A DNA stretch of 64,000 nucleotides from Amycolatopsis bartoniae. Lineage in GTDB: Bacteria; Actinomycetota; Actinomycetes; Mycobacteriales; Pseudonocardiaceae. Positions within the stretch are counted from its first letter, which is position 1. Each line of letters opens with the position of its first letter. Both the position numbers and the translations under genes were made by a program. The notes under the pieces are model-generated. The model searched no databases. It saw nothing but the letters and a program-made list of their open reading frames with translations, and had not been told where the DNA came from. The DNA is taken from NCBI RefSeq assembly GCF_014191255.1, contig NZ_JACHWH010000003.1:811501-875500 (forward strand). The letters run 5' to 3'. Of the stretch, positions 34,988 through 37,578 are shown piece after piece.

Positions 34988-35308
34988 TCATTTCCGCCGG
35001 CGGCGCAGGTGCCCGTGGCGGCGGGCCCACTGGACGAACGCCCGGGCGTCCTCCCGGGCGCGGGTGCCGTCGGCGCGGGGGTGGGCGCGGGCGTACTCGT
35101 CGAAGAGGGCGGGAAAGCGCTCTCCCAGCCGGCGGCACTCCTCGGCGGCGAGCTTCGCGACGACGCGCCTTCGCTTGGCGCGCAACGCTTCGGCCTCGAC
35201 CCGCAGCCGGTCCACGTCGAATCCGGGAGGCGGTGGAGCGTCGGCGAGGAGGGTGTGGAGGAGGGCCGCCTGGGCCGCGGCGAGGCGGTCACGCTGGGGC
35301 TGGGTCAT
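34988..35308 (-). CDS. SCO6045-like protein, partner of the MNIO gene
   Basis: 106 residues, matching the SCO6045-like C-terminal-domain family: DRLAAAQAALLHTLLADAPP, GFDVDRLRVEAEALRAKRR, CRRLGERFPALFDEYARAHP and a basic end (ARRHGHLRRRRK). It is all-helical by appearance. Many MNIO enzymes need a small partner protein; this gene, 60 bp after the DUF692 stop in the same orientation, is the natural candidate here (inference from position). Confidence 0.8.
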   Translation of the reverse strand: MTQPQRDRLAAAQAALLHTLLADAPPPPGFDVDRLRVEAEALRAKRRRVVAKLAAEECRRLGERFPALFDEYARAHPRADGTRAREDARAFVQWARRHGHLRRRRK

Positions 35309-35368
35309 GGCTGTGCCGTGGGGGAGGAAGCGCTGGGGTTGGGGCGGCAGGAGCGCACCGGGGCGGGG

Positions 35369-36166
35369 TCATCCCAGTGCCGCGCGGATGGCGGTCAGCT
35401 CGGCGGCCAGTTCGCTGTCCGCGGGGAAGTCGTCGTCGCGTTCGAGGAGGACTCCTGGCGGGTCCGTGCGCGCCGCCAGTTCGGTCAGCAGCGACAGCAC
35501 CTCCGGGCGCACCGGGTGGGCGTGCGTGTCGTGGTACACGCCGTCCCGCTCGACGCCGCCCGCGATGTGGACGTACGCGAGCCGCTCCAGGGGTAGCTCG
35601 TCCAGCAGCCGCACCGGGTCCGAGCCCAGGTTGCGGGCGTTCGCGTACAGGTTCGCGACGTCGATCAGCAGCAGGCAGTCCGTCCGCTCCGTCAGCTCAC
35701 CCAGGAACTGCGCCTCGCCCAGCTCCGCGTCCGGCCACTCCAGCAGCGCGGCGATGTTCTCCAGCGCCAGCGGCACGGAAAGCGCTTTCTGGGCCGCCCG
35801 CACGTTGGCCACCAGCACGTCCAGCGCCTCCCGTGTGCGCGGCATCGGCAGCAGGTGCCCGGAGTCCAGCCCGCCGGCGCGCACGAAACACACGTGGTCG
35901 CTCACCAGCGGCGCGTCGAGCGCCTCGGCGACCGCGGCCAGGTGCTCGACCCTGCCGCGGTCCACCGGCTCCGCGCCACCGAGCGAGAGCGACACCGCGT
36001 GCGGCAGCACCGGCAGCCCGCGCTGCCGCAGCAGCCGCAGCGAGTCCGGCAGCCGCTCCGGCCGCAGGTTCTCCGCGACGACCTCGACGAAGTCCACCCC
36101 GGGCAGCCGCTCGATGCTCAGGTCCAGCTCGGGCCGCCACCCCAGCCCGACGCCCAATCCGTCCAT
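35369..36166 (-). CDS. DUF692 multinuclear non-heme iron oxidative enzyme (MNIO)
   Basis: 265-residue TIM-barrel enzyme of the DUF692/MNIO family, which uses two or three iron ions to modify cysteine, aspartate or other residues in ribosomal peptides (MbnB-type chemistry). Candidate metal ligands line up with the family: [56 protein letters not shown] and [10 protein letters not shown]. The start is taken as ATG 36166, which overlaps the TIGR04222 stop as TGATG; ATG 36178 is also possible. Operon TIGR04222, MNIO, SCO6045-like implies the TIGR04222 tail is the substrate. Confidence 0.92.
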
Positions 36167-36999
36167 CAACCGCCGCATCCGCCACCACCACAACCGCCGC
36201 CTCCGCAGGAGGACGAGTCGCCTCCGCCGGAGGAGCTCGACGGCATTGCCGAGCGCAGTTGGGCGGCGATGGCCTCGTCCGGGAAGGCCACCAGGCCGCC
36301 GACCGCCACGAGGCCCACCGCTCCGGTGAGCGCAGGCAGGCCCACGTGCCCGTTCCGCTCCGGCGCCTTGCCTTCCACCGAAGCCCGCACCTCCCGCCCC
36401 GGGGCGCTGAGCCATCGCGCCCGCGGCCACAACGCCACGCCCGTCACCAGCACGGCGACGATCAGCAACAGCACCAGGAACCCCACCGGCCGGTGCAGCG
36501 CCACGCCGTTCACCAGCCGTGCCACGCCGAGTGCCACCACGGCCAGCAGCGGCAGCGCCGGAACCAGCAGCCTCGGCACCCGCGGCCGGACGAGCAGCCC
36601 GCGCTCGGTGAGCGAAGCGTGCGCCCACCGCACCACGTCGTGATCGCCGAGGGCACCGCGCACCTGCGACAACGTCCGGCTGTCGTGCTCCCGCACGTAC
36701 GCGAACACGGCCTGCTCCAGCCGCTCACCGGCCGCCTGCCGGCCCACCGCCTGCAGCTTCCCGCCGCGCTGCACCCGCAGCCGTTCGGCGTCGATCAGGC
36801 CCGCCACGGCGGAGTCGACCACGCGGTGCGGCCCGCCGACGAGGAACGCCGCCTCCTCCAGCGACAACGGCGCCTGGGCGGCCGCCACCGGGACGCGGGA
36901 CACCACGCGGCGCAGTGCGAACATCAGCGCGAGCGCGACGACGAGCGCCGCCACGTACACCCCGATGAACTGCGGCCCCGACAACCCCCATGGCTCCAT
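36166..36999 (-). CDS. TIGR04222-domain membrane protein with C-terminal Cys-Gly tail
   Basis: 277 residues. Residues about 9-27 form one transmembrane helix, followed by a soluble helical domain (to about 140) and two to three more helices ([52 protein letters not shown]). The last residues are Ser/Gly-rich and end in three CGGGG-type units with Cys265, Cys270 and Cys275. This architecture is that of TIGR04222 proteins, found beside DUF692 genes. The tail looks like a core peptide fused to a membrane protein. A TAATCT hexamer lies 6 nt before the ATG (leaderless). Confidence 0.9.
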
Positions 37000-37042: not shown

Positions 37043-37450
37043 TCAGTAGTCGTCCCGGCCCGTGATCTGCTCCTCCAGCATCTCGGCCGAACCGGTGACG
37101 AGCTCCAGCGGATCGGTGAACTCGTTGATGTCGAGATTCTTCAGCGGCAGCGAGTGGCGCAGCACGAGGTACTCGCCCATCACGCAGGCCCCGCCGACCA
37201 CCGTGGTGTGCCCGATCTCCTCCAGCACCGCGTGCAGGTCGCACTCGTCGGCCCGTGCGAACGGCGTCGCGATCTGCACCCACTCCTCACGCTTGTCGAG
37301 CACCTCGCGCGCGATGACCACCATCTGGGTGCGCTCCTCGTCCTCCGGATCCTTCCGGAACCGCAACCGGATCCGGAGCTCCTCCGGCTCGTCGCGGATC
37401 ACGCGATAGGACTGCCTGATGAACGTCACGAGCTCGCGCCAGGTCGCCAC
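37043..37450 (-). CDS. YbjN/type III-chaperone-like conserved protein
   Basis: 135 residues: WRELVTFIRQSYRVIRDEP helix, LRIRLRFRKDPEDEERTQMVV strand, then ADECDLHAVLEEIGHTTVVGG and LVLRHSLPLKNLDINEFTDP, an alpha-beta layout like the YbjN/secretion-chaperone fold. The assignment is loose. The start is taken as GTG 37450 with a purine-rich upstream stretch; a longer frame to 37540 is possible. It is divergent from the TauD gene. It stops 43 bp before the TIGR04222 start codon; the TIGR04222 promoter lies in that gap, so it is likely separate. Confidence 0.6.
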   Translation of the reverse strand: MATWRELVTFIRQSYRVIRDEPEELRIRLRFRKDPEDEERTQMVVIAREVLDKREEWVQIATPFARADECDLHAVLEEIGHTTVVGGACVMGEYLVLRHSLPLKNLDINEFTDPLELVTGSAEMLEEQITGRDDY

Positions 37451-37578
37451 CCGCGTTCCCTTCCTCTCCCTGACCGACTGCGGATCGTGAGCAGTCAAGC
37501 ACACCCGCGCACGCGCGCACGAGTCCTGCCATGTGGACACTGTTGACCATCACCCGATCCCGCCACGATGCTCGGGCC

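Follow-up and report, generated by a model that had tools for sequence, protein, structure and literature searches.

A membrane-carrier cysteine tail as the putative substrate of an MNIO enzyme in a recurring actinobacterial locus

The window, by which we mean the whole stretch of 64,000 nucleotides of Amycolatopsis bartoniae DNA that was analysed, contains a three-gene set that is a genuine, recurring system and that encodes, in this order on the minus strand, a TIGR04222 membrane carrier, an MNIO (DUF692) enzyme and a protein of 106 residues. The best explanation of the whole, to which we assign a probability of about 0.6, is that the MNIO and its small partner oxidise a cysteine-bearing tail that stays bound to the carrier, giving a metal site at the inner face of the membrane. 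What supports it in the sequence is the operon, its recurrence, the way in which the tail cysteines track the MNIO, and a conserved iron site.

In kind, the system is the one described by Antoine et al. in 2025 (Microb Genom, PMC12452194), who collected more than 3,500 TIGR04222 proteins and proposed those with Cys-rich Ser/Gly C-terminal segments as MNIO substrates. The idea that the tail is a substrate, put forward for the window in a sequence-only reading, is therefore already in print as a prediction. The published clusters share with ours the carrier family, the MNIO, a partner after the MNIO (DUF2063-like, named PME-type 2) and the Ser/Gly/Cys C-terminal segment. However, the published partner is sparse, being reported in at least 10% of clusters while many appear without one, one third of the TIGR04222 genomes are reported to lack an MNIO, and the tails are considered likely periplasmic. 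What our computation adds is a near-universal, often fused partner, which may explain the published "missing" partners, together with a tail that appears to be portable and is predicted to face inward.

According to the mechanism that we propose, the three genes would give a RiPP-type modification that stays attached to a protein. The small DUF2063-like partner would hold the MNIO to its substrate, and the MNIO would oxidise the tail cysteines while the tail remains bound to the membrane carrier. Tail and enzyme would lie on the same, cytoplasmic side, so that no export step would be needed. Each Cys-Gly would undergo a four-electron oxidation to a 5-thiooxazole or a close relative (oxazolone/thioamide), and the modified cysteines, lined up along a flexible stalk of glycine, could form a site for a soft, copper-like metal at the inner membrane face.

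A recurring operon and its small partner protein

The carrier, which would also be the substrate (277 residues; 36166..36999, minus strand), is recognised by its open reading frame, by its match to the TIGR04222 family (E 2.9e-35, 122 bits against a cut-off of 43) and by an AlphaFold2 model. Its low-complexity C-terminal tail (residues 252-277; 36169..36246, minus strand), delimited by sequence, conservation and low pLDDT, holds the proposed modification sites, Cys265, Cys270 and Cys275, with Gly-Gly after each. The ATG of the MNIO reading frame (265 residues; 35369..36166, minus strand) sits in a TGATG that overlaps the TGA stop codon of the carrier; the enzyme matches DUF692 (PF05114; E 2.7e-83, 279.7 bits, cut-off 25) and was aligned to 8hci and 7dz9. 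The third gene (34988..35308, minus strand) encodes the 106-residue partner, for which a 56-row alignment and a model indicate four helices, a DUF2063-like character and a relationship to the published PME-type 2. The reading frames and the sequence thus bear out the layout given in the sequence-only reading, with its three tail cysteines, the TGATG overlap and a third gene on the same strand.

The genome itself (7.76 Mb, 23 contigs) has a single TIGR04222 match and a single MNIO match, both at this locus. Among named relatives of the MNIO, the top 20 share 77-81% identity with it; most are from Saccharothrix, Amycolatopsis, Umezawaea and other Pseudonocardiaceae, and the top row carries the label Rhodococcus. 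A 165-residue gene directly upstream (37043-37540, minus strand), without a Pfam match over the cut-off, was excluded from the system: it recurs in one of 80 named loci (L294, Amycolatopsis rhizosphaerae) and in no locus of the class sample besides the window's own.

Recurrence was followed in a class sample of 394 genomes, each searched with the TIGR04222 and MNIO families, in which at most seven TIGR04222 candidates were scored per genome, so that misses are possible, and from which 160 loci were taken for tail reading. Named loci are the best 80 of 574 relatives, picked by MNIO similarity. In the class sample, TIGR04222 gave 134 matches over the cut-off in 106 genomes and MNIO 108 matches in 94; 78 genomes had both families, 28 had TIGR04222 without MNIO, 16 had MNIO without TIGR04222, and 272 had neither. 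An MNIO is found no more than 10 kb away from 79 of the 134 TIGR04222 matches, and always on the same strand. Of the 107 MNIO-bearing loci, 70 have both genes in one orientation, more than chance would give, and the partner is found in 69 of these 70, the exception (L113) being a contig that ends inside the MNIO; the expected co-occurrence of the genes therefore holds. Among the 80 named loci, TIGR04222 is present in 74 and the partner in 77, and the remaining three stop at contig edges.

Neither Pfam nor NCBIfam gave a match to the 106-residue protein at E values up to 1, and the label "SCO6045-like", attached to it in the sequence-only reading, was not borne out by any search. The partner profile, grown from this protein, detects an 87-residue domain, which was found in 91 of the 107 MNIO loci sampled from the class; 15 MNIO loci have neither partner nor TIGR04222. 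In 45 of the 91 (38 of 69 with TIGR04222 and 7 of 22 without), the domain follows the MNIO within a single open frame. Near-universal co-occurrence supports the reading of the third gene as a partner of the enzyme.

The partner model is a four-helix domain with a mean pLDDT of 85.2. DUF2063 is the Pfam family matched by most partner members, below the cut-off (16 of 56, best E 0.001). Furthermore, an hhalign comparison of the partner profile with ten plasmid-borne DUF2063 proteins scored 25.5 (probability 9.7%). By comparison, 40 column shuffles gave at most 18.4, the unrelated MNIO profile reached 19.0 and that of the carrier 17.0. Kinship of the partner to DUF2063 is likely on these comparisons, but weak on its own. 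Searches of solved structures with the partner gave nothing convincing (best E 0.04 and 0.13), Foldseek with its model reached only E 4.5, and the genome itself has no DUF2063 match at E 0.001. The window partner is 59% identical to the 115-residue partner ORF of locus L245 (Saccharothrix sp. NRRL B-16314), which fits, by strain and length, model A of Antoine et al., described as a 115-residue protein of that strain (PMC12452194). SCO6045 is listed at 3.01-fold in an RNA-seq table on the HbpS-SenS-SenR redox system (PMC4991794); this was not used as evidence on the partner.

Carrier topology and the side of the tail

The carrier begins with a transmembrane segment (TM1, residues 8-33), followed by a winged-helix-like domain (about 47-145), TM2 (149-167), TM3 (173-190) and then the Gly/Ser/Cys tail. 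Its AlphaFold2 model has a mean pLDDT of 86.6 and a pTM of 0.78, with low pLDDT in the tail. Among solved structures, Foldseek matched Vps74/GOLPH3 (2zih; probability 1.00, E 0.093), which is a fold hint only. The carrier domain is homologous to DUF2207_C (PF20990), with an hhalign probability of 98.0% (E 1.8e-13) against at most 0.4% in 40 shuffles; this was noticed at L018-L031, which are weak matches. DUF2207 membrane proteins (PF09972/PF20990) share with the carrier the winged-helix domain, the transmembrane hairpin and a Gly-rich C-terminal tail; they differ in their N-terminal domain, and the 11 listed have no Cys in the last 45 residues.

Lysine and arginine near the membrane average 13.3 on the side of the domain and tail against 0.6 on the other side (0.169 against 0.047 per residue), and the excess is on the same side in all 51 aligned rows. 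By the positive-inside rule, it follows that domain and tail would be cytoplasmic. The same orientation is implied by the DUF2207 architecture: all five scanned DUF2207_C homologues have both DUF2207 domains, and 10 of 11 show, by hydropathy only, an earlier hydrophobic, signal-like segment ahead of the matching transmembrane one. Other proteins that bear this kind of tail agree with a cytoplasmic side, since single-TM carriers have Arg clusters and two carriers appear soluble. We consider it probable, from these sequence features, that the tail lies on the cytoplasmic side; a "surface-tethered" tail, as the sequence-only reading had it, is the less favoured reading, as charge distribution, DUF2207 homology and the other carriers all lean towards the cytoplasm.

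A fourth hydrophobic segment at about residues 222-240 deserves consideration, because a tail behind it would face out if the segment crossed the membrane. The same modification would then be made in the cytoplasm and the modified tail exported, a course of events that we regard as rather unlikely. The hydropathy of the segment is 2.01 in the window carrier and at least 1.6 in 18 of 51 near relatives, and the published prediction of a periplasmic tail (PMC12452194) points the same way. Class-wide, however, only 11 of the 58 Cys-tailed proteins reach 1.6, with a median of 1.29, and AlphaFold2 places here a helix of nine residues, too short for spanning. The Arg cluster between transmembrane segment and tail in single-TM carriers (judged by eye), the two soluble carriers and the DUF2207 architecture also speak against an outside tail.

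The enzyme and its expected chemistry

The iron ligands reported for TglH are H71, H107, E151, D184, N187, H216, D229, H231 and E258 (PMC10880893). All nine are retained in the window MNIO, where the predicted ligands are H56, H91, E136, D169, N172, H200, D213, H215 and E242, and they are invariant across 11 MNIOs; this mapping, like that of MbnB, comes from visual inspection of the alignment with 8hci and 7dz9. In particular, Asp244 of the window enzyme aligns with MbnB Asp240, thought to act as a base in MbnB, and is likewise invariant in the 11 MNIOs, while the position of Asn73, essential in TglH, is a gap. Five NCBIfam subtypes match the enzyme, none of them at its cut-off: BufB (201.6 bits, cut-off 310), HvfB (164.9, 360), ApyH (114.8, 400), ChrH (56.4, 600) and MbnB (42.8, 325). 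By score, the enzyme is therefore nearest to thiooxazole makers; by cut-off, it is no member of them.

The resemblance extends to the bufferins and captophorins, in which an MNIO and a DUF2063 partner give a copper-binding 5-thiooxazole: the window has a BufB-nearest MNIO, a Cys-rich substrate and a partner directly after the MNIO. Captophorin has been reported to lose 4 Da on each Lys-Cys motif, the product being a 5-thiooxazole that binds copper (PMC13097082). Different from these systems, the window has no DUF2282 match, no EGKCG precursor and, by eye, no signal peptide; its BufB score stays under the cut-off, its partner lacks the Pfam-level DUF2063 of PME-type 1, and its candidate substrate is a membrane carrier. 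With TglHI, which makes 3-thiaglutamate, it shares the conserved iron ligands and a partner protein; the differences are the missing Asn73 and a tail that ends in Cys-Gly-Gly, so that the cysteine is not C-terminal. On these comparisons, thiooxazole-type chemistry on the tail cysteines has about an even chance of being right, and copper as the bound metal is a tentative suggestion.

MNIOs are chemically diverse (PMC12452194), and the enzyme might act on the tail by beta-carbon removal of the TglH type, by cyclisation or by cross-linking; the sub-threshold subtype scores leave room for such chemistry, yet we think it unlikely, as BufB is the best subtype, the TglH Asn73 is missing and the MbnB-type Asp is present. 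Moreover, no recurrent tailoring enzyme was found in 142 neighbour ORFs (of 164 called) around 28 named loci, where SelR/MsrB was the only family in more than seven of the ORFs (18 of 142).

A gene for SelR/MsrB and one of 104 residues precede the operon in 46 and 44, respectively, of the 80 named loci (for example L245:1254-1688, L247:2565-3002 and L249:2395-2820). As a functional neighbour, MsrB was rejected because its pattern is that of clade synteny: it occurs in one of 91 class loci with MNIO and partner and in one of 53 loci without MNIO, and is absent from the window. The 104-residue gene, too, is found in one of the 91 class loci and is absent from the window.

Cysteine tails, their enzyme and their carriers

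Among 51 aligned rows including the window, Cys270, Gly272 to Gly274, Cys275, Gly276 and Gly277 are at least 90% conserved. The five-residue spacing of the cysteines, noted in the sequence-only reading, is common among relatives but not conserved: named relatives show spacings of 6 (84 cases), 5 (44), 4 (35), 7 (22), 8 (18) and 3 (12), plus longer ones. The presence of tail cysteines among homologues does hold, and their number tracks the MNIO neighbourhood.

A protein was scored as having a Cys tail when its final 60 residues contained two or more [GSA]C[GSA] motifs and G/S/C made up at least 50% of the final 40. Such a tail occurs in 58 and is missing in 21 of the MNIO-adjacent TIGR04222 proteins, against 9 and 46 of the non-adjacent ones (Fisher p 7e-11, uncorrected for kinship). 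When tails with at least 50% G/S/C/D are compared, all 58 beside an MNIO have at least three Cys motifs, whereas the 30 away from it comprise 19 with no motif, two with one and nine with at least two. For seven of these nine the genome has an MNIO at another place, one (G462) is next to an MNIO fragment truncated where the contig stops, and one (G542) is likely a wrong frame. Glycine makes up 52% both of the 58 Cys tails and of the 21 non-adjacent Gly-rich tails; the latter are richer in Asp and poorer in Ser, and their lower Cys content is a matter of selection, as they were chosen for fewer than two Cys motifs. Of the 74 named loci with TIGR04222, 71 have at least two Cys motifs in the copy nearest the MNIO, and all 74 have them in at least one copy.

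The association between tail cysteines and MNIO is clean in counts, yet rests on few events, because the trait changes only nine times on a quick tree (106 of the 134 domains) and five supported independent pairs (on average 2.1 concordant, 0.0 discordant, 2.9 undecided) are not significant. Low-complexity tails are prone to change by replication slippage, which we counted against the substrate reading. Even so, we hold it very probable, from sequence comparison, that the tail is the substrate of the MNIO, as had been proposed, given the co-occurrence, the tracking of cysteines, the other carriers and the conserved iron ligands.

The tail cysteines could instead be free thiols, forming a metallothionein-like metal or redox tail while the MNIO acts elsewhere. 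Some MNIO-partner loci do lack an adjacent Cys-tail protein, and the literature found gives no measurement of a modification for TIGR04222 tails. We deem this improbable in view of the contrast in Gly-rich tails with two or more Cys motifs, which are 58 of 58 beside the MNIO and nine of 30 away from it, of the circumstances of those nine, and of the other carriers with such a tail beside MNIO and partner, even though their loci were chosen for MNIO. That a chance low-complexity tail stands beside an unrelated operon has a negligible probability: Gly-rich repeats expand easily in GC-rich DNA and the independent trait changes on the tree are few, but TIGR04222 accompanies 70 of the 107 class MNIO loci with strand and partner conserved, and 21 of the 30 Gly-rich tails away from MNIO have at most one Cys motif.

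Loci with MNIO and partner but no TIGR04222 number 22, and in 11 of them another protein bears the same kind of tail; these loci were selected for having an MNIO, and starts and Arg clusters were judged by eye. Nine of these carriers (L213, L216, L217, L220, L228, L234, L236, L237 and L238) are short, with a TM-like segment, an Arg cluster and then the tail. The other two (L230 and L239), of about 450 residues, have no TM-like segment and are soluble by hydropathy. This larger carrier has matches in six of the 394 genomes (four candidates scored per genome), small numbers from one bacterial family (code f92): three copies stand beside MNIO and partner with tail cysteines, one of them irregular, a copy beside an MNIO in L340 (G486) ends in one Cys-Gly, and none of the five matches away from MNIO has a Cys tail. 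The single-TM Cys-tail peptide at L236:3569-3841 (minus strand) gave a sub-threshold match to a YxzE-like putative bacteriocin family (PF25184, 22.9 bits against 40).

As for the 21 MNIO-adjacent TIGR04222 proteins without a Cys tail, 19 are paralogues without a Gly tail from one genus (code g8), which we infer to be Streptomyces; five of them share the locus with a Cys-tailed sister and 14 have no such sister. The two cysteines of a CxxxC in or near TM1 are kept in 18 and 17 of the 21, and a further Cys in TM3 is kept in 18. Fifteen of the 69 loci (14 of this genus and L134) have no Cys-tailed TIGR04222, and all 15 have an MNIO-partner fusion; a tail-less TIGR04222 beside such a fusion is seen at L087, L088, L091, L094, L098, L101, L128, L138, L144, L152, L166, L173, L180 and L192. 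Searches reaching about 4 kb to either side at these 15 loci and at 11 of the 22 TIGR04222-free ones brought up no convincing ORF with a Cys tail; hidden Cys-rich ORFs listed as candidates were judged to be wrong-frame noise, and L207 has one Cys-Gly-rich frame on the strand opposite to the MNIO.

Two further arrangements were noticed. At L285 and L298, four tandem TIGR04222 ORFs, several with Cys tails of their own, precede one MNIO and one partner, and at L103, L104, L151, L169, L202 and L205 TIGR04222 proteins without a nearby MNIO have, by eye, a common CxxAxxC and then a Cys-free Gly-rich tail.

The range of carriers points to a tail that can move as a unit. It is possible to hypothesize, tentatively, that the Cys-Gly tail is a portable module, placed on unrelated carriers (three-TM DUF2207-like, single-TM and soluble) for one MNIO-partner pair, and that its modified form would be a polythiooxazole metal site attached permanently to the cytoplasmic membrane and facing inward; such a RiPP-type product would be neither cleaved nor exported. 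In the searched, mostly open-access literature, the term TIGR04222 appeared only in PMC12452194 and in one Pseudonocardia genome paper of 2016, and neither that literature nor the main text of PMC12452194 gave a statement on an MNIO-partner fusion or a cytoplasmic tail for TIGR04222. The earlier remark that no product or function is assigned to this fused-substrate type stands in the literature found.

To our knowledge, the MNIO products described to date are metallophores that are either small or exported. In-place modification of the tail on a carrier at the inner membrane face would, if it occurs, give a protein a lasting metal site of post-translational origin and would avoid the puzzle of export timing raised by Antoine et al. 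for precursors with signal peptides. Fused forms of enzyme and partner would serve as ready-made, single-chain reagents for reconstitution, and the tail would be a simple substrate with which a large, so far uncharacterised group of actinobacterial systems could be tested.
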